Below are positions 26,858 to 36,111 of a stretch of DNA of 38,608 bases, piece by piece; position 1 is the stretch's first letter, and every line of letters begins with the position of its first letter. The DNA lies in assembly GCA_030428255.1 (NCBI GenBank), contig JAUIBT010000029.1, positions 1-38,608 of the forward strand, written 5' to 3'. The stretch comes from Alphaproteobacteria bacterium (GTDB lineage Bacteria > Pseudomonadota > Alphaproteobacteria > UBA7985 > JAUIBT01). Both the position numbers and the translations under genes were made by a program. The notes beneath the pieces were generated by a model, which was not told where the DNA came from, made no database searches, and saw only the letters and a program-made list of their open reading frames with translations.

Positions 26858-27114
26858 AGCATGCCTCCTGCACGCAGGGCATGGCAGCGCGGGCGCTTGC
26901 CCTGCACCGCCGCGCATTGGGTCTCAAACCCCCGGATGACCGCCAGAAGCCGGTCCGGGTGGGCCTTGTGATAGGTGACAGAGCGTTCAACGCCCGATGA
27001 GCCGGCCTTAAAGGTCACGATCATCGAACCCTGGCCTGCAATCAGGCTGTAGTAGACCTGCCGCAGGGCCGCTGCGGCCGCGCAGGGATCGCTCTCGTCA
27101 ATGGGGGCTGCCAT
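26854..27114 (-). CDS. W: Head-tail joining protein W (lambda gpW)
   Basis: The product has 86 residues. ALRQVYYSLIAGQGSMIVTF and GVERSVTYHKAHPDRLLAVI fit the gpW fold (two helices with a beta hairpin), which stabilises packaged DNA and offers the tail attachment. The ATG overlaps the portal stop by one base (TGATG). In lambda W precedes the portal; here it follows. Confidence 0.85.
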   Translation of the reverse strand: MAAPIDESDPCAAAAALRQVYYSLIAGQGSMIVTFKAGSSGVERSVTYHKAHPDRLLAVIRGFETQCAAVQGKRPRCHALRAGGML

Positions 27115-28733
27115 CAGATCGCCTCCTCAAGTTGTTTTGGGATCTCGCCCTCTGGCGCCTCGTCTTCGCCCTGCGTTTCGGGCTCCTGGCCAAGATCGGG
27201 CTCAGGCAGGCCGTATTCGGCCCGCATGGCCGCCTCTTGCGCGCGCTGCTGGTAGACGTCCTCGATATCGGCTCCGATATCGTTGGCGATTTGGGCGTCC
27301 GACATGACTCCCAGTTTTTTCCAAACCTCGTGCGCGCGGGCCTTCTTTAGGTCATCGGCCGTCGGGCGCGGAGCCCCACGCCATTCGGCACGGCAGGCCG
27401 CCGTTCGATTGGCAAGGAAGCCATCGAGGCCGCCGGGGAAGGCTATGCCGCCGGTCGCGATTTCCTCCTCCAGCCAGGCCTCATAGACGGGCTGGCAGAA
27501 GGGCGCGATGATGCTCTGACGCCGGGCGGTGGTGATGGCGAAAATCTCCGTTGTCGCCGCCTGCAATGAGCTGTAGGTCGCCCCAACGCTGTCGCCGGTC
27601 GCGCTCTCGTAGGTCAGGCCCAGACAACGCGCAAGCTCGCGCAGCAAGTGCATGGCGAAGTCTTTGTAATCCGAGCTTGGGTGGCTGGATGTGTGGAACT
27701 TCAGCTCCTGGCCGGGGAATAGGTGCGCCAGGCGACCGTTGATACCGACATTCAGGGTGCTGTCGTCATAAAAGCCCGCGATTATGTCTATGTAAGTCTC
27801 GACCGGGGACACCCCATCGGCTGCCATACGGGCCTGCTCTTGGGGCGTTAGTAGCCCCGCCATGACCTCCTCGGTCGGCTCGTCCGAGGTAATGGTGGCC
27901 GCGAACAGGGTTTGAACGATGGCCGCCATCAGCGTCGCATCGGCCAATTGATCGAACTGACGCGCCACCTGCAATGCGGGCGTCATGGGCGAGATGCCTC
28001 GGTAGGTGCCGGGCAGCCCATCAAAAACATGGATGACGCGCGGACGGCCTGCGCCGTCTCGCGCCCGCACTCGCACATCCTCATCATAACCAAATTTGCC
28101 CTTGCGAACCGCCAGGTAGCCCACCGGCATACCGTCGCGATCCAGGTAGACGCCATTGACCAGCCGGGCCGTGTCTTCGCTTTTGCGGGAGAGGCGGTAG
28201 GGCGGCAGCAGACGCACCTTGGTGCCGTAGCGGTTCCAGGGCCGTTTGCGCCACGGCAGCTCTGCCAGTATCTCGCCGGTCATCAGCCAAGATCGAAAGG
28301 CGGCTGCCTGCATTTGGCCAAAGCTGCGCAGCCCCTGCACGTCGCATTCCTGCGCCGAACGCGACCACAGCTCAAAGCGCCGCTCGACCGTCTTGGCCCA
28401 ATCTGAGGCCTCCTGGATGGTCATACCGAAGGTCTCGTTCTCGGGCAGCGCCTTGAGACGAAGGCCCGTGCCGACCGTATTGGCGACCGCCTGATCCACC
28501 GCGCCCGATAGCCATCCGTTGTTGTGCAGCAGGTCCGCAACGCGGGCAGCAGAGGCATCCCAAGCATCGCCGACATCCTGCTGGTTTTCGCGCAAGGCCG
28601 GACGCCAGCCCGCAAAGGTCACGCCCCGGCCGCCGCGCATGTAGCGCGCGCCGGGCCGAGCGGGCATAGCTACGCCGGTCGCCGGGGCAATCACCTTCGC
28701 GACTGCCTGGCGGGCTTGAGAGATCAAAGACAT
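27114..28733 (-). CDS. B: Portal protein B (lambda family)
   Basis: The product has 539 residues, the usual size. It shows the lambda portal pattern: PARPGARYMRGGRGVTFAGW, NNGWLSGAVDQAVANTVGTG, SFGQMQAAAFRSWLMTGEIL, ARCLGLTYESATGDSVGATY. The C-terminal part is acidic. It forms the dodecameric portal through which DNA is packaged. It follows the terminase gene and couples to W. Confidence 0.93.
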   Translation of the reverse strand: MSLISQARQAVAKVIAPATGVAMPARPGARYMRGGRGVTFAGWRPALRENQQDVGDAWDASAARVADLLHNNGWLSGAVDQAVANTVGTGLRLKALPENETFGMTIQEASDWAKTVERRFELWSRSAQECDVQGLRSFGQMQAAAFRSWLMTGEILAELPWRKRPWNRYGTKVRLLPPYRLSRKSEDTARLVNGVYLDRDGMPVGYLAVRKGKFGYDEDVRVRARDGAGRPRVIHVFDGLPGTYRGISPMTPALQVARQFDQLADATLMAAIVQTLFAATITSDEPTEEVMAGLLTPQEQARMAADGVSPVETYIDIIAGFYDDSTLNVGINGRLAHLFPGQELKFHTSSHPSSDYKDFAMHLLRELARCLGLTYESATGDSVGATYSSLQAATTEIFAITTARRQSIIAPFCQPVYEAWLEEEIATGGIAFPGGLDGFLANRTAACRAEWRGAPRPTADDLKKARAHEVWKKLGVMSDAQIANDIGADIEDVYQQRAQEAAMRAEYGLPEPDLGQEPETQGEDEAPEGEIPKQLEEAI

Positions 28734-28739
28734 GGGCTG

Positions 28740-30785
28740 TTACCTATTTAGGCGCGATCCGAGACCCGCGAATTTGCGGCGTCGCGATGAGCCAGCCGCG
28801 CTTTGCTCTGGCAGTTTTGCGGTAGCGCCCTCGCCCTCATCGCCTGCCGCGACGTCGGCGGGCTCCTTGGGTGCAGAATCGCTAAGAGTGCCCTGGCGCT
28901 GCACCCCTTCTGGGATGCGCTGCACGTTGAGCGAATAGCCGATGGCCGCCAACATGGACTCCACATCGAGCTGGTGATTGTGGCGCGAACGCTTCACCCA
29001 TTTGGGTTTGCCCTCGACCACAACGCGCGCCTCAGACGTAACCTGCTTGGCGTAGTCCTCGGATACGTCCTGATGCACGTAAAAGGCGCCAGGTGCGTCC
29101 ATGGGCGTTCTGATGCGTGAGACCACCAGGGACTTGAAAAAGTCCGTTGATAGCGTCACCAGGTTGATCGAATAGCGGGCGCGCTTGCCGTCGGGCTTGA
29201 CCTCAATTTTCGAGACCCGAAAAGGCGGCGTTTGCACGTCGCGGCCTTTGGTCGGGCTGCAAAGCCAAGAATAGCGGCGGCAAAACTCATAGACCTTGTG
29301 TTCGTTTCCTTGCTCCGGCTTGTCCGGCCGGAAACCTGAGTCAATGAAGACCTTCTCGATCTGCATGCCCGCAATCGGCTGCAGCATGAGATCGGCCAGC
29401 GCGCTCCAAACATCGTCCGTATCCGTCGGGCCGTAAAGCTGACCGTCGTCGATCAGCCAGGATGTGCCGCGCGCGCCAAAGGCGCGAATGCCGTAGATCA
29501 GGCTGAATTTCTGCACATCGACGGCCATGACCAGGCGCAGGCCTCCGGCGGGGATCTCGCCCCGCTTATAAGGCAAGCGCCGCTCCATCACCTCCTGCCA
29601 TTCGGGCACGTCGCCCGAGGCCGTCATAGAGTAGCACTCGCCAAATGAGGCGTTCATAGCCGTTTGAATGCGGTCGTGATCGCCCGATTCCAAAGCCGTC
29701 AGATAGGTCTCAGCCCGCTGGCCCCAGGTGACAAAGGGCGAACAAAGCCCCGAGGTCCACATGGACAGGGTCGAACTCTCCTCTGGTGCGCCGGTGACGA
29801 CGGGGGCGTCATCAACCAAGCTCACGTTCTGGCCGGGCGCTACCATAGCGCCCCGCTCGTTCATCCAGGATTTGTCGTCCTCGGTATGGATGCCGCCACA
29901 ACGCGGGCAGGACAGGTAAGCACCGCGTTTGGCCTGGGCGGGCGTGGCCCGCTCCGGCCAATGGAGCTGCTTGAAGCGCGGGATGAAGTAATCATTGCAA
30001 TGCTTGCAAGGCCACGCCCAATGATGGCGCGTGCCCTCTTGCCAGAGTTTCCAGATCGGGCTCTCCAGATCTCCGGTGGCCGACGCCGCCCAGAACTCGA
30101 AGCCCGTTGCCTCGTCCAACTCGATCTCCACAAGGCCCCTCGCTGGTGTTGAGGTGATGGCGGTCACAAAGTCAGCGTAGGTTTCACCGCGCGCTTCGAC
30201 CAAGCCCAGCACATCGCCCTGGCCCTTGACGTTGGCCATCATCTCGTCGAACTCATCGATCAGCGCCAAGGCGGCCGGATCGGATTTCAGCGCCGAAGAC
30301 GAACCGGCGTGCGCCAGGCGGACGCGGACGCCAGCAACGTGCTTCAGCGTCTTTTTCATGCGTCTGCCGCGAACAACCTTGTTCTTCAGGGTCTCGGCCT
30401 CGTCGAGCAGCCCCATGAGGCGCGGCTCAAACTGGTCGGTCAAAAACTCTTTGGTCGGGCCGACGTAAATGATGGGCGCGGGCCGTTGATCCAGCCGCGC
30501 GCCAATGACGTCCAGCATGGAATCGGTTTTCCCGCTCTGCGCAGAGGTGACGGCAACAACCCGGCGGAAGCCGCCCTGGTGAACCGCCGCCGACCAGGGC
30601 AGCATGTAGGGCGTTAGCCAGGGATCGCGCGGGCCTGGGATGCCCGCTGTCTCAGGATAGACGCGGTGCTCGGCAGCCCAATGGGCAGGATCACGTTTCT
30701 GGCTCGGCGTCCAAAGTGTTCTCGCCAGCCGCCAGAGACCGCTCTGCTTCTGCCGCGCGCCTAGATAGTCGTTCGAAGGCTCCAT
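28740..30785 (-). CDS. A: Terminase large subunit A
   Basis: The product has 681 residues. ATPase motifs: Walker A SAQSGKT at 81-87, Walker B region ALALIDEFDE at 172-181; nuclease half starts after about 350 with LRLVMAVDVQKFSLIYGIRA. The zinc-like motif CKHC/CPRC occurs around 259-298. The gpA family cuts cos sites and packages DNA. The start overlaps the small subunit gene by 95 bases; no start further in would keep the conserved WAAEHRVYP segment. Confidence 0.94.
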   Translation of the reverse strand: MEPSNDYLGARQKQSGLWRLARTLWTPSQKRDPAHWAAEHRVYPETAGIPGPRDPWLTPYMLPWSAAVHQGGFRRVVAVTSAQSGKTDSMLDVIGARLDQRPAPIIYVGPTKEFLTDQFEPRLMGLLDEAETLKNKVVRGRRMKKTLKHVAGVRVRLAHAGSSSALKSDPAALALIDEFDEMMANVKGQGDVLGLVEARGETYADFVTAITSTPARGLVEIELDEATGFEFWAASATGDLESPIWKLWQEGTRHHWAWPCKHCNDYFIPRFKQLHWPERATPAQAKRGAYLSCPRCGGIHTEDDKSWMNERGAMVAPGQNVSLVDDAPVVTGAPEESSTLSMWTSGLCSPFVTWGQRAETYLTALESGDHDRIQTAMNASFGECYSMTASGDVPEWQEVMERRLPYKRGEIPAGGLRLVMAVDVQKFSLIYGIRAFGARGTSWLIDDGQLYGPTDTDDVWSALADLMLQPIAGMQIEKVFIDSGFRPDKPEQGNEHKVYEFCRRYSWLCSPTKGRDVQTPPFRVSKIEVKPDGKRARYSINLVTLSTDFFKSLVVSRIRTPMDAPGAFYVHQDVSEDYAKQVTSEARVVVEGKPKWVKRSRHNHQLDVESMLAAIGYSLNVQRIPEGVQRQGTLSDSAPKEPADVAAGDEGEGATAKLPEQSAAGSSRRRKFAGLGSRLNR

Positions 30786-31197
30786 CGATTTCCTGCTCTA
30801 AGCGCCGCCGCTCCTGCATGTCACGGGTGTAGCGGGCCGGGAGCCCTTGAAATTCAGATTTGACGGCCGTCGCCATCTCGCCGACCACCGCCTTGGCATC
30901 TTCAAGCGGGATCAACTCGCGAGATCGCTCTTTGATCCGCAGCTCGATTTCGCGCGTCCGGGCCTCGGTGGCCCGGTTCGCAGCGGCAGCCTTGTTGCTC
31001 TCCTGCAGTTGCGCCTCGTAGTAAGCCACGACCCCACGGACGATGGCCAACAGGCTAAAACGCCCGCCCTTCTCTTTCTCGATGAAACCCTTTTGCGCCA
31101 GGTCGAAAATCCAACGTCGCGATCGCCCCACAAGAGCAGCGGCCTGGTCTGCGCTAAGCGTGTTTTGCGAGCTATCTGGTCCAGGCTTCGAGGTCAT
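30691..31197 (-). CDS. nu1: Terminase small subunit (Nu1-like)
   Basis: The product has 168 residues. The N-terminal winged helix (LSADQAAALVGRSRRWIFDL, QKGFIEKEKGGRFSLLAIVR) recognises the cos region; a long charged helix follows (ATEARTREIELRIKERSREL). The layout is that of lambda Nu1. It overlaps the large subunit by 95 bases. Its upstream region also drives the plus-strand small genes in the opposite direction. Confidence 0.88.
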   Translation of the reverse strand: MTSKPGPDSSQNTLSADQAAALVGRSRRWIFDLAQKGFIEKEKGGRFSLLAIVRGVVAYYEAQLQESNKAAAANRATEARTREIELRIKERSRELIPLEDAKAVVGEMATAVKSEFQGLPARYTRDMQERRRLEQEIDGAFERLSRRAAEAERSLAAGENTLDAEPET

Positions 31198-31363
31198 AAT
31201 TTCTCAACGTGCTTAGAATGCAACACCGTTTGACTAGCCAGTGTTCCATCATTGCTTTTCCAGATTAGGTCTCTGTTTTTACTTCATTTAACTTGGCTTG
31301 ACCAGGCACCAGAGCGAAGGTGCTTATACCGAAACAAAGCAAAGCCAACCTGGAGACAAGACC

Positions 31364-31576
31364 ATGGCCAAGAACGAAAAAGCCCTCGCGGCCTTTGCAG
31401 CAAAGAAAGCGGAAATCGACACCATGCTGGCCCGCCTGCAGGCCCTCAGCGACGACCATTTAAACGCCGATCCCGACGAGATCAACTGGGGTCACGTAGG
31501 CGACCTCAGCCACTACGCCGATCTTCTGGAGCACATCACAGACGCCGCCTTCCAAGAGGGCGAATACGCAGAATAG
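31364..31576 (+). CDS. Small conserved protein, first of a plus-strand trio
   Basis: The product has 70 residues, from the ATG at 31364 with GGAG upstream. It is helical and acidic: MAKNEKALAAFAAKKAEIDT, MLARLQALSDDHLNADPDEI and NWGHVGDLSHYADLLEHITD. Proteins of this look accompany DUF3489 genes in some proteobacteria. It is the only part of this region, with two partners, transcribed on the plus strand. Function unknown. Confidence 0.75.
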   Translation: MAKNEKALAAFAAKKAEIDTMLARLQALSDDHLNADPDEINWGHVGDLSHYADLLEHITDAAFQEGEYAE

Positions 31577-31602
31577 GCCAAGACCTGAAAGGAGACACAA
31601 GC

Positions 31603-31830
31603 ATGACAAAGCAAGGCATGACCACCATCGAAATCAAGGGCAACGATCTGCCAGAGCACCTGCAAGGCCGCCCAATGCACTACATTCTCAACGATATTGA
31701 GGGGCTGCTGGATGCCGAAGCGGGCGTCTTCGCCAAAGCGCGGCCCAACGGCAAGGGGGTGTGCATCGTATTCGCGACCACCTTTGTGCGCGACGTAGCA
31801 AACACCCTTTACGAGTACGGATACATCTAA
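31603..31830 (+). CDS. Small conserved protein, second of the plus-strand trio
   Basis: The product has 75 residues with AAAGGAG upstream of the ATG. It has alpha/beta features: TTIEIKGNDLPEHLQGRPMH, LLDAEAGVFAKARPNGKGVC and IVFATTFVRDVANTLYEYGY. I do not recognise the family. It is followed by a strong hairpin terminator and lies in the middle of the trio. Confidence 0.75.
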   Translation: MTKQGMTTIEIKGNDLPEHLQGRPMHYILNDIEGLLDAEAGVFAKARPNGKGVCIVFATTFVRDVANTLYEYGYI

Positions 31831-31836
31831 TCCCCC

Positions 31837-31858
31837 AGCCCCGCTTCGGCGGGGCTTT
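31837..31858 (+). terminator. Hairpin terminator after the second plus-strand gene
   Basis: AGCCCCGC (31837-31844) and GCGGGGCT (31849-31856) form a perfect 8-bp stem with a TTCG loop followed by TTTC. The short T tract makes it an imperfect terminator, so some read-through to the DUF3489 gene, 15 bases further on, is expected. Confidence 0.7.
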
Positions 31859-31873
31859 CACCTGGAGACAAAC

Positions 31874-32089
31874 ATGACAAAGACCGCCGATAAACCCAAA
31901 ACCAAGCAGCAAATCATGATCGACCTATTGCAACGCAAAGACGGAGCAACCGTCGCGGAAATCATGGAAGCGACGGGCTGGCAAGCCAACACCGTAAGGG
32001 GGGCCATGACGACTTCCCTAAAGCACCGCCTTGGCATGACGGTCACCTCTGAGAAAAGCGAACGCGGCCGGGTGTACCACGCCGACTAG
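31874..32089 (+). CDS. DUF3489-family protein
   Basis: The product has 71 residues with GGAG upstream. It matches DUF3489: KQQIMIDLLQRKDGATVAEI, MEATGWQANTVRGAMTTSLK and HRLGMTVTSEKSERGRVYHAD. The middle reads like a winged helix-turn-helix with a conserved GWQ.NTVRG, suggesting DNA or nucleic acid binding. It is convergent with the methyltransferase gene (stop codons about ten bases apart) and is the last of the trio. Confidence 0.85.
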   Translation: MTKTADKPKTKQQIMIDLLQRKDGATVAEIMEATGWQANTVRGAMTTSLKHRLGMTVTSEKSERGRVYHAD

Positions 32090-32098
32090 AAGCCCTTC

Positions 32099-33409
32099 CT
32101 AAGCCGCATCTGCAACCGGCTCGCCTCCCAGGCGGGCCGTTTGCGTTTGGGCAAAGCTCTCTCCGGTTTTCTCCAAGATGGCCTGCTCGCCCGTATAATC
32201 TTGCCAGCGCTTCACCGCGACATCGACATAGGCAGGGTTGAGCTCGATGGCGAGGCAGCGCCGCCCGGTCATCTCGGCCGCAATGATGGTCGTGCCAGAT
32301 CCCGAAAAGGGCTCGTAGACCGCATCGCCTGGCTCGCTGTTGTTCTCAATCGGACGCTTCATGCATTCGACCGGCTTCTGGGTGCCGTGGCCGAAGCCGC
32401 TATCATCGCGCGCAGGGATATTCCAGACCGTCGATTGGCTACGCCCGCCGATGTAGTGGCCGGTCTTGCCGTCGCGCACGCAATACCAGGCAGGCTCGTG
32501 CTGCCAATGGTAGTCGCCTCTGCCTAGCGTAAAGCGATCTTTCGACCAAATGATCATCGAGCGATGCCGGAAGCCGGCTGCCTCCAAGCTCTCCAAGACC
32601 TCGCGGGTAAAGAGGCTGGCGTGCCAGACGTAGGCCACATCGCCTTTGAACAGGGCCCAAGCATCGCGCCAGTCGGCCTTGTCGTCGTTCAGCACCTTGC
32701 CCATTTTCTTTTTGTTCTTATTAACGCCAGCTTTGGCTCGCCAACTCGGATCGTAATTCACGCCATAAGGCGGGTCAGTCACCATCAAATGCGGCACCTC
32801 ACCGGCCAAGACCGCCTCGACAATGGCCTCGTCGGTGCAGCTGCCACAGGCAATCCGGTGTCCACCTAGGAGCCAAACATCGCCTTCTTGTGATACTGCC
32901 TGCTCCTCGTCCGCTTCAGGCACGTCGTCTGGGTCGGTAAGCCCGACCCCTGCCTCGTTTAGCGCCTGCGGGATCAAGGCGTCCAGTTCGGCCTGCGAAA
33001 ACCCGATCATAGATAGGCTGTCTTCTGCGCCTTCCGCCAAGAGCGTGTCCCACTCGAAACGGAGCATCGCCGGGTCCCATTCCGACGTTTCCGCCAGACG
33101 GTTGTCGGCCAGGGTATAAAGGCGGCGGTCCTCATCGGACCAGCCGCGCGCAACCATCACAGGCACCTCGGGCACGCCGAGCTGGTTTGCTGCAAGGATG
33201 CGACCGTGGCCTGCGATAATGGTGCCGTCCTCGGCCACCAAGACCGGGATCGTAAACCCAAAGCGCTCCATCGAGGCCGCGATCTGGTCCACCTGCTCGG
33301 GCGGATGCGTGCGGGCATTTCGGGCGTAGGGTGTCAGATCTTCGATTGGCCGCATCATGACCTTCGCGGCAGGCCAAGAAGCCTGATCGACGCGTTTTTG
33401 CGATTGCAC
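32099..33409 (-). CDS. ParB-domain/DNA methyltransferase fusion
   Basis: The protein has 436 residues with a GTG start and AGAGG upstream. The N-terminal ParB-like domain (about 19-110) has LTPYARNARTHPPEQV, VLVAEDGTIIAGHGR and ARGWSDEDRRLYTLADNRLA. The C-terminal N4/N6 methyltransferase has DPPYG at 212-216 and FSGSGTT at 368-374, so motif IV precedes motif I, the beta-class order. Such fusions are common in phages and modify phage DNA to resist host restriction. No restriction enzyme is seen. Confidence 0.92.
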   Translation of the reverse strand: MQSQKRVDQASWPAAKVMMRPIEDLTPYARNARTHPPEQVDQIAASMERFGFTIPVLVAEDGTIIAGHGRILAANQLGVPEVPVMVARGWSDEDRRLYTLADNRLAETSEWDPAMLRFEWDTLLAEGAEDSLSMIGFSQAELDALIPQALNEAGVGLTDPDDVPEADEEQAVSQEGDVWLLGGHRIACGSCTDEAIVEAVLAGEVPHLMVTDPPYGVNYDPSWRAKAGVNKNKKKMGKVLNDDKADWRDAWALFKGDVAYVWHASLFTREVLESLEAAGFRHRSMIIWSKDRFTLGRGDYHWQHEPAWYCVRDGKTGHYIGGRSQSTVWNIPARDDSGFGHGTQKPVECMKRPIENNSEPGDAVYEPFSGSGTTIIAAEMTGRRCLAIELNPAYVDVAVKRWQDYTGEQAILEKTGESFAQTQTARLGGEPVADAA

Positions 33410-33957: not shown

Positions 33958-36111
33958 CTAATACTGCCAGGCCAGACCCAAGCGCCAGGTCACCGCGCGG
34001 TTGGCGCCGAAGATACCGCTTTCCGCATAGGAGAGGTGAGTATCCGCGCGCGATAACACATCACCGAACCAGGTGCCGCTGGCAAAGCCCGCCAGGCTGC
34101 CGTTCAGGCCTAGCTCCCAGGCGGCGGTGACTTGCTCCTCGTCCAGCAGGTCCAGCGGCAGGCTGCCCGCCACCGTGTCGCGGTTCAGCCAAGTCCCATT
34201 GGCCGAGGCCGCCACATAGCCGGAGAGGCCATAGAGGATGGGCTGCTGGCCCTGGATGCGCAGGCCCGTGGCCCAAGCGCCTTGTTCAACGCCGACCTTG
34301 GCCACCGCTGTGCCCAGGTTGGTGGCATAGGCATCGAAGGTCTCGTGGCTATAATTGAGGCTGCCGTAGGGGCTAAGGCTATAGCGGTCCCAATCCAGGT
34401 CCAAGCTGGCCTTGCCCGAAGCAATCCAGCGCTGGCTATCGGGGCTGCCGGTCTCGCCATAGGCAGTAATGGTATTGGCAAAGCCGCCATACGACACCAA
34501 GCCCTCCAGGTTAAAGGCCTCGAAGACTTGCCAGGCGGCATAGGCATCCGCGCGCCAGCCCTGCTTGACCAGGTTACCGGTCAGATCACCGCTGAAGTCC
34601 AGATCGGCGGCCTCGTGCGCCACCGCTAGGCCCATAAACAGGTCCGAGGTGACAAAGCCGTCCAGGCCCAAGCTGTAGTCGTGGATCAGGCCGTCATAGG
34701 CTTGGCTGCCGGTCTTAAAGACATGGCCACCGGAATAAGAGAAGAAGGCATCCAGACCAGCGCCCGGCAGCAGGGCCTCAAAGGGAGAGCTGGCGTCTTG
34801 CCAAGCGCCCAAACTGGCGGCCATGCCGGGGTCAAGCTGGGCCACCTGCGCCTGCGACTGGAAGCGGCTGATCTCGCTCGTAGCCAACAGCAGGTCATCG
34901 CTGGTGACGCTGACCCAGCCTTGGGCATCAACGAAGCCCAGGCGCTGGCCAATCATCTCCAAGGCTTCCAGCGGGGTATCGGCGCTGGCATTCGTGAGAT
35001 CGCCGCTAAGGCTAAGGCTGGCGAAGGGATCGGGTTCGCTGCTGGCGGCATCCTGCTGAAATTGGGCCAGGTTGTTGGCAAAGACCCGGCCATTGCCGCC
35101 TTTGGCTTGGGCAAAGCGGTTGGAGACGTGGCTCTGCAAGGAGCGAGCGATCTGCTCGTTGATGATCAAAGCGCCAGCGGCCAGGATTTGCGGGCGTTTG
35201 CCCAAGGCATCCTCGCAGGCGGGCGCAGGCTGACCGAACTTGGGCTGCCTAGCGGTCTGGGTTTGGAAACCTGCTCCGTCGGCAAAATGCTCATAAGTAT
35301 TGACCGCACAGACGTTCCAGTCGCTGATGTCTTGGTCGAAGGCCGTGGCAGATAAGAACATGAGACTCATGTCCGTCACACTAGCGGTATCCCAAGCCCC
35401 GATGTCTTGGTTGAAGGCAGCGGCGCGATGGAACATTCTCTCCATGTTCGTCACGCTGGAGGTATCCCATCCACCGATGTCCTGCTTGAAGCTGCTCGCA
35501 AGTTGGAACATGAAACTCATGTTCGTCACCCCAGCGGTATCCCAAGCCCCGATGTCCTGGTCGAAGGCAGTGGCAGATAAGAACATGAGACTCATGTCCG
35601 TCACACTAGCGGTATCCCAAGCCCCGATGTCTTGGTTGAAATCCCGAGCGCTCTCGAACATTCCCCACATGCTCGTCACGCTTGCGGTATCCCAAGCCCC
35701 GATGTCTTGGTTGAAGGCAGAATTCCAGAACATTCTCTCCATGCTCGTCACGCTGGAGGTATCCCAAGCGCCGATGTCCTGGTTGAAGGTGTCCCGGTTC
35801 AAAAAAAGGCCCGACATATCCGTGATGTAGCCCGTATAGACTTGGGTTACGTTGTCGTTTGCGTCGATCTTGGCATCAAGGCTCGCACGATCGACCAACT
35901 CCAAGCCCGCGCAGGAGACGATGCTGCCGTCGCCCAGCGTGTAGCTTCCGGTGGTGTAGGTGTCGCCAACATTGATGCCAGCCTCATCGCACTTGGCCAT
36001 GGCCAGGCTCGGCATGCCAAGTAGCAGGGCGCCAACAGCCAGGCCCCATAACCCAAGCAGCAGCTTGTTCAAGTCGCTGGCATTCCCCAACGCAGTCTTA
36101 TTCCCAACCAC
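33958..36111 (-). CDS. DUF285/BspA-like repeat autotransporter (prophage cargo)
   Basis: The protein has 717 residues and a GTG start at 36111. A signal peptide (residues 1-39, ending PSLAMA) precedes a short region with Cys41 and Cys68, then seven repeats of about 25 residues (97-282) of the type [20 protein letters not shown], the DUF285 pattern of surface proteins. A linker with Cys268 and Cys299 follows. From about 450 to the end it is a beta-barrel ([33 protein letters not shown]) finishing WRLGLAWQY with a terminal aromatic, as in type Va autotransporters. The passenger is expected on the cell surface. It lies between direct repeats and has no role in virion building, so it is a lysogenic-conversion candidate (adhesion or phage exclusion). 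Confidence 0.85.
35311..35830 (-). repeat. 75-bp tandem repeats encoding DUF285 units
   Basis: Seven units of about 75 bases, in frame, encode the repeats. The 71 bases at 35345-35415 and 35570-35640 are identical and spaced 225 bases, exactly three units, while neighbouring units are diverged. This indicates a recent duplication or gene conversion within the array, so repeat number is likely variable between strains. Confidence 0.85.

Follow-up and report, generated by a model that had tools for sequence, protein, structure and literature searches.

A plus-strand trio of small genes lies between terminase and methyltransferase genes

The window, by which we mean the whole 38,608-nt stretch of DNA analysed here, is an entire contig and bears a prophage. 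Three small genes occupy positions 31364-32089, an interval that begins exactly at the start codon of the first gene and ends exactly at the stop codon of the third, with all frames present, as the first-pass annotation had described. GGAG stands a few bases 5' of the ATG in each of them, in agreement with the good ribosome-binding sites that had been ascribed to the trio. The strand arrangement was likewise as reported: the TerS, TerL and portal genes lie on the minus strand on one flank and the methyltransferase gene on the minus strand on the other, the plus-strand trio thus being divergent from the packaging genes and convergent with the methyltransferase gene. The third product, previously named as DUF3489, scores well above the curated cut-off of its family (PF11994, 86.8 bits against 29.5), yet it is a short form. 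The features of the locus are as follows.

27114-28733, minus strand: portal gene, lambda-type
28740-30785, minus strand: TerL, terminase large subunit of the gpA type (PF05876/PF20454)
30691-31197, minus strand: TerS, terminase small subunit (phrog_57, E 6e-17)
31198..31363, plus strand: divergent terS-ORF1 intergenic gap, in which the trio promoter would be expected
31364-31576, plus strand: ORF1, 70 aa (phrog_14596)
31603-31830, plus strand: ORF2, 75 aa, by sequence similarity a distant member of a same-slot family of other prophages
31837..31856, plus strand: UUCG-loop hairpin before DUF3489, matching helix P1 of the DUF3489 leader RNA
31874-32089, plus strand: DUF3489 (ORF3), 71 aa (PF11994, short form)
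32099-33409, minus strand: ParB-like plus N6/N4 DNA methyltransferase (phrog_498, E 3.3e-133; PF01555)
32117..32139, plus strand: terminator-like hairpin 3' of DUF3489, 10 pairs, tail TTTGCGTTTG

The terminator-like hairpin lies inside the 3'-terminal part of the convergent methyltransferase gene. Adjoining this gene, we also observed a minus-strand 717-aa protein with DUF285 repeats and an autotransporter beta-domain (33958-36111).

The terS-ORF1 gap contains a block, AGAGCGAA, at 31311-31318, whose core GAGC recurs in relatives, with two columns invariant and two nearly so across 19 upstream regions (alignment A9). The block is also present in a sister prophage from another species of the same genus (locus L242). 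A promoter scan of the gap gave no sigma-70-type match. Several relatives have palindrome-like stretches in this gap when inspected by eye, and no operator common to them was found. Together with the GAGC core, these stretches may mark a shared operator or promoter.

ORF1 resembles phrog_14596 nearly end to end (E 1.1e-32) and is under purifying selection, with a median pN/pS of 0.31 against the window across 189 loci. Its AlphaFold2 (AF2) model has helices at residues 2-33 and 42-63 (pLDDT 75.6, pTM 0.44), and ORF1 is thus predicted, at moderate confidence, to form a helical hairpin; a fold search with this model returned helical matches only, at E 2.1 or worse. For both ORF1 and ORF2 no convincing match was found in Pfam, NCBIfam or PADLOC, and we set aside membership of a known defence or anti-defence family, PADLOC holding none for either. 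We also rejected ORF1 as a DNA mimic: its net charge is -10 in the window but has a median of only -3 over 83 distinct relatives.

The trio is a conserved phage cassette at a fixed place

A lack of conservation, which would have counted against the trio, was not observed. ORF1 relatives are encoded in 326 viral-contig stretches, the best 80 of these 326 at E 4e-27 or better, and in at least 485 genome-contig stretches. Most of the 80 genome-contig matches listed come from Alphaproteobacteria, Rhodobacterales among them, and some come from Gammaproteobacteria (Aliikangiella, a Bathymodiolus symbiont). In draws of whole genomes, each counting the window's own genome, the ORF1 family appeared in 2 of 61 near relatives, 9 of 289 members of the class and 6 of 299 members of the phylum, a sparseness expected of a phage gene. 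Among annotated phages we found six records, all with distant ORF1 copies, and among plasmid records ORF1 in 4 and DUF3489 in 11. One distant copy of the phrog_14596 family, in Roseobacter phage RDJL Phi 2, has a different context, near nucleotide-metabolism genes. The stretch examined from that phage (L098:3941-4437) holds the distant ORF1 homologue and one other plus-strand gene, with no terminase annotated in it.

The layout was counted over 193 loci, the window included and duplicates kept. Upstream, 143 of the 154 loci with at least 2.5 kb of flank have TerL on the opposite strand; 53 of the 60 with at least 5 kb have the ParB-type methyltransferase, again on the opposite strand, further downstream. 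Of the 164 loci with at least 1.5 kb, 153 have DUF3489 downstream on the strand of ORF1, a figure that is not fully independent, since loci were chosen by ORF1 similarity and some (L081-L097) by DUF3489 similarity. Among loci with enough flank, a reversed orientation of TerL, DUF3489 or the methyltransferase was never seen. The trio is therefore a conserved phage cassette at a fixed place. Over 90 viral-set loci, ORF1 has a median identity of 73% to the window and TerL one of 27% (best segments), which indicates that ORF1 is kept while the packaging genes around it diverge or are exchanged.

Its first genes are more variable. Direct blastp with window ORF2 gave 21 matches at 26-30% identity (E 2e-8 to 9e-5), and a profile HMM of the family found in the same slot, built without window ORF2, matched it at E 4e-5 with the search space set to 27000. 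Judged by these similarities, window ORF2 is a distant member of that family, whose cluster comprises 41 loci including the window. Among 165 loci with both ORF1 and DUF3489, for which DUF3489 starts were picked by a simple script, 129 have a long DUF3489 and nothing of the ORF2 family between the two genes, 17 combine ORF2 with a long DUF3489, and another 17 combine it with a short one. Two loci are left over: L135, where the script probably chose the wrong start, and the window, where ORF2 is too distant to pass the cut applied. The sister prophage L242 (TerL 89% identical, methyltransferase 71%) has no ORF1 or ORF2 match, and two other small genes precede its DUF3489. Taken together, the layout counts and these substitute genes indicate that the first genes vary more than DUF3489 and its position do. 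By eye, the two L242 genes (L242:2114-2901), which fill the ORF1/ORF2 slot and are each followed by a UUCG-loop hairpin, look like relatives of one another, and a gene similar to them stands ahead of an RNA match and DUF3489 at 5220-5594 of L234.

DUF3489 is predicted to be a winged helix-turn-helix protein

The first-pass annotation had taken the DUF3489 product as helix-turn-helix (HTH)-like and hence suggestive of regulation. The AF2 model of the window protein, built with 22 sequences, has a mean pLDDT of 90.3 and the order H-H-H-E-E, so that a winged HTH is predicted with high confidence and this part of the suggestion is supported. Among solved folds the closest are ArsR- and MarR-type regulators, the best Foldseek matches being an ArsR repressor, BpsR and TFE-alpha at E 0.045; no Foldseek match to the model had an E-value below 0.001. 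The window protein lacks the N-terminal region of most relatives, the long form being present in 146 of 165 loci. PMC4520260 names DUF3489 in passing, and the open literature searched yielded no published function for it.

A structured leader RNA precedes DUF3489 in most relatives

In relatives without an intervening gene, the gap before DUF3489 is mostly about 94 nt long and folds strongly. In most relatives an element of about 75 nt lies ahead of the DUF3489 start codon. From an alignment of 72 leaders (A3) and a covariance model we defined three helices. P1 is a GC hairpin; the left arm of P2 pairs either with the Shine-Dalgarno sequence or with the spacer that separates it from the start codon; and P3 is an inner hairpin enclosed by P2. 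Between P2 and P3, unpaired A49, G50 and A52 are conserved at 93-98% (A8 columns).

A3 comprises 72 of 91 non-redundant leaders, drawn from 157. We left out leaders whose start had been picked within the gene or the P3 loop (L029, L031, L038, L075, L132, L135, L138, L139, L163, L188), those with a short gap lacking the element (L005, L120, L149), two odd ones (L015, L063) and those with another gene in between (L087, L109, L162, L176). At L031, L038, L138 and L188 the script had picked an ATG in the P3 loop, after AGGAGG, as the in-frame DUF3489 start; a second start site is possible at these loci.

The 103-nt leader segments fold at -43.0 kcal/mol against -36.1 in shuffles, lower in 69 of 72 cases, with a mean fold z of -2.0 and values below -2 in 39 of 72. 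In a larger alignment, A8 (84 distinct rows, from 86 sources chosen among matches of RNA model R1 at E <= 0.08 with near-duplicates partly left out), 92.1% of cells are paired against 77.0 +- 0.6% after shuffling (reached in 0 of 500 shuffles), and both partners have changed in 21 of 23 pairs; as A8 was fitted to the structure and its sources were already R1 matches, these figures lean towards the model. We therefore ran a separate test of P2 on 58 distinct arm pairs, with the 9 bases leading up to the conserved motif as one arm and the 14 preceding the start codon as the other. Arms with their own partners gave -10.4 kcal/mol, a value attained in none of 5000 deals, whose arms gave -7.2 +- 0.32. 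Unguided RNAalifold on A3 found four P1 pairs and three P3 pairs without recovering P2, instead pairing the P2 left-arm columns 37-39 with columns 10-12, upstream of P1. P2 occurs in two registers, for which reason the arm-pairing test and covariance model were used.

Cells with G-U and A-C combinations number 54 and 52 over all 23 pairs, and 52 and 26 when pair 64/82 is left out; the excess of G-U in the latter count fits an RNA of the sense strand. At gathering scores Rfam gave no match in 15 sources, the window among them, and a sensitive-mode search of 7 sources (E up to 1) returned only sR10, weak, off-place and on the other strand of L082. As looked for in a cis-regulatory RNA, the structure covaries and keeps a fixed place beside one gene family. 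No description of the cassette or of the leader was found in the open literature, most subscription papers and all bioRxiv preprints lying outside the search.

A start less accessible than expected, also looked for in such an RNA, was not what we observed. Between -15 and +3, the mean predicted probability of being unpaired is 0.48 in relatives, compared with 0.43 in shuffles of the same segments (Wilcoxon p 1e-5), with 0.41 for the Shine-Dalgarno sequence plus spacer and 0.68 for the AUG. The start region is thus predicted to be more accessible than in shuffles, not less, and plain burial of the Shine-Dalgarno sequence, a simple 'off' switch, finds no support here. Compared with ORF1 starts (0.54), DUF3489 starts in relatives are modestly less accessible at 0.48 (39 loci, p 0.003).

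The leader is tied to DUF3489 rather than to ORF1

Whole-genome searches with RNA model R2 (E <= 0.01) of 190 class and 299 phylum genomes, which are overlapping draws, found 22 distinct places, and each of the 22 is followed on the same strand, at a distance of 58-436 nt, by a PF11994 match. Seven repeat a training row exactly, two come close to one (L200 at 99% and L201 at 91% coverage-weighted identity), and 13 have at most 80% coverage-weighted identity to any training row. At least 12 of the 22 stand without a nearby ORF1 match (three in G096, two in G105, those in G195, G055, G103, G507 and G489, and one each in G107 and G111), which ties the RNA to DUF3489. R1 searches, which took in 186 sources, fewer than all loci, found the element in 109 of them at E <= 0.01, the 12 training rows and near-duplicates counted.

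The element was found in two contexts: the terminase/methyltransferase loci, and those that contain DUF2924 or a serine recombinase. The same leader stands before DUF3489, with no ORF1 match, at the DUF2924 loci L235 and, more weakly, L241, and at the serine recombinase loci L236 and L239; in the stretches examined of the latter two, tblastn with the window proteins gave no terminase or methyltransferase match. Numerous DUF3489 genes, by contrast, gave no RNA match (L005, L010, L012, L094-L096, L099, L111, L120, L149, L242). The class draw gave 34 DUF3489 matches against 15 RNA matches, and outside the class none of 32 genomes with DUF3489 had an RNA match; as the genome RNA searches scored 25 or 16 candidates per genome under strict filters, missing matches here do not prove absence.

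At L087, L109 and L176 a small gene lies between the element and DUF3489. The RNA at L087:3418-3492 and L176:3359-3434 precedes this inserted gene, and at these two loci the element may control it too.

The window carries a reduced copy of the leader

In the window, the hairpin at 31837-31856 is AGCCCCGC-UUCG-GCGGGGCU, a perfect 8-bp stem followed by three T, with a fold z of -2.63. It had been described as an internal imperfect terminator. That description fails, the stem being perfect, the T-run missing and the hairpin not called by the terminator scan, and we rejected an intrinsic terminator here. With filters off, R2 instead aligned 31838-31876 as P1 plus the start codon (19.7 bits). The idea that an internal hairpin tunes the level of DUF3489 was therefore right in spirit, and the kind of element probably wrong, as the hairpin matches P1 of the leader and not a terminator. 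A minus-strand R2 match at the same copy (21.7 bits) is the same palindrome read backwards and was not credited.

In this copy 16 nt replace 52 model positions, and P2 and P3 are missing. Only two of the 90 loci with TerL and ORF1 have a TerL more than 50% identical to that of the window, L058 (79%) and L067 (80%), and both carry the element (43.4 and 40.7 bits; R1 missed the L058 copy). The absence in the window therefore looks derived, and P2 and P3 have probably been lost in its lineage. L242 has P1-like UUCG stems only, with a different stem sequence and no RNA match. The window start region is predicted open, with a probability of being unpaired of 0.73; with P2 and P3 absent, DUF3489 should here escape leader control. 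The window copy looks like a natural leader deletion and offers a useful comparison.

Proposed control of DUF3489 and alternative readings

By computation we observe the cassette, its fixed place, the HTH prediction, and the RNA with its tie to DUF3489. From these we infer that the leader controls translation, and our guess is that DUF3489 is the ligand of its own leader. The layout suggests that the trio would be a mobile-element operon with its own transcription, encoding a winged-helix regulator, DUF3489, along with either one or both of two small accessory proteins (ORF1, ORF2). The conserved RNA fold of most relatives takes in the site at which ribosomes enter DUF3489, and the leader would gate translation of this gene. 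Feedback by the DUF3489 protein on the leader is the most likely way for it to do so and would hold the regulator at a set level; it is the most economical idea of a ligand, because the RNA follows the gene through different neighbourhoods. We put the chances that this whole account is right, operon, gated translation and feedback together, at about even. The leader shares with known translation-controlling mRNA leaders, whether riboswitches or protein-binding, a conserved stem encompassing the start region of a single gene, and differs from them in having no Rfam family match at its place.

The leader could also be regulatory with a ligand other than DUF3489, such as the ribosome, an RNase, a host protein, a small molecule or temperature, leaving DUF3489 merely controlled. 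The same RNA data (the P2 arms, the covariation and the placement before DUF3489 at every genome match) fit this too, and the conserved unpaired A, G and A between P2 and P3 look like a ligand-binding site. That the element follows DUF3489 into two contexts argues weakly against it, self-recognition fitting better than a sensor of one condition, and we regard a different ligand as a real if doubtful possibility.

HTH proteins that read RNA are, to our knowledge, rare. Aca2 is an HTH protein that controls its operon via both DNA and RNA, and its control at these two levels can be likened to that proposed for DUF3489. The trio further resembles acr-aca operons in placing small genes before an HTH gene on the same strand, which raises a counter-defence reading in which ORF1 and ORF2 would act against host defences and DUF3489 would be an autorepressor. 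The fixed phage locus, the variable first genes (ORF1, ORF2, or other small genes at L242, L087 and L109) and the RNA-binding control by Aca2 speak for such an operon. DUF3489, however, belongs to a different HTH family, the structured leader of the trio precedes the HTH gene and not the first gene, and no anti-CRISPR activity is known for the trio; ORF1 and ORF2 have no defence-related PADLOC match, and in our judgement ORF1, at its median identity over 90 loci, seems too conserved. We consider this reading unlikely. A combination in which DUF3489 binds DNA and its own mRNA, with the leader as its RNA target and the adjoining genes as a counter-defence slot that could be mined via the RNA, is speculative and on the whole improbable.

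A plainer account has the stems as ordinary intercistronic ones (a partial terminator or an RNase barrier) in a late or moron cassette without special control. One GC stem with a UUCG loop may indeed be all that is left in the window, and L242 has similar stems before two genes; this account leaves unexplained both the pairing of P2 with the start region in relatives and the placement of all 22 genome matches before DUF3489, and the window stem has no T-run. It seems to us decidedly unlikely. Very improbable, finally, is that the inverted repeats are DNA sites, either DUF3489 operators or recombination sites of the linked serine recombinase: DUF3489 is a predicted winged HTH, a serine recombinase is present at some loci and G-U and A-C cells balance when all 23 pairs are counted, but arm sequences vary with pairing kept where a DNA site would be expected to keep its sequence, the right arms are located at the start codon, and G-U exceeds A-C with one pair set aside.

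A leader absent from Rfam, ahead of an uncharacterised HTH family, is a handle on DUF3489 that predicts an RNA target, a step of control and linked small genes. The RNA model is likewise a tool for finding the locus in genomes, as every genome match adjoined DUF3489.
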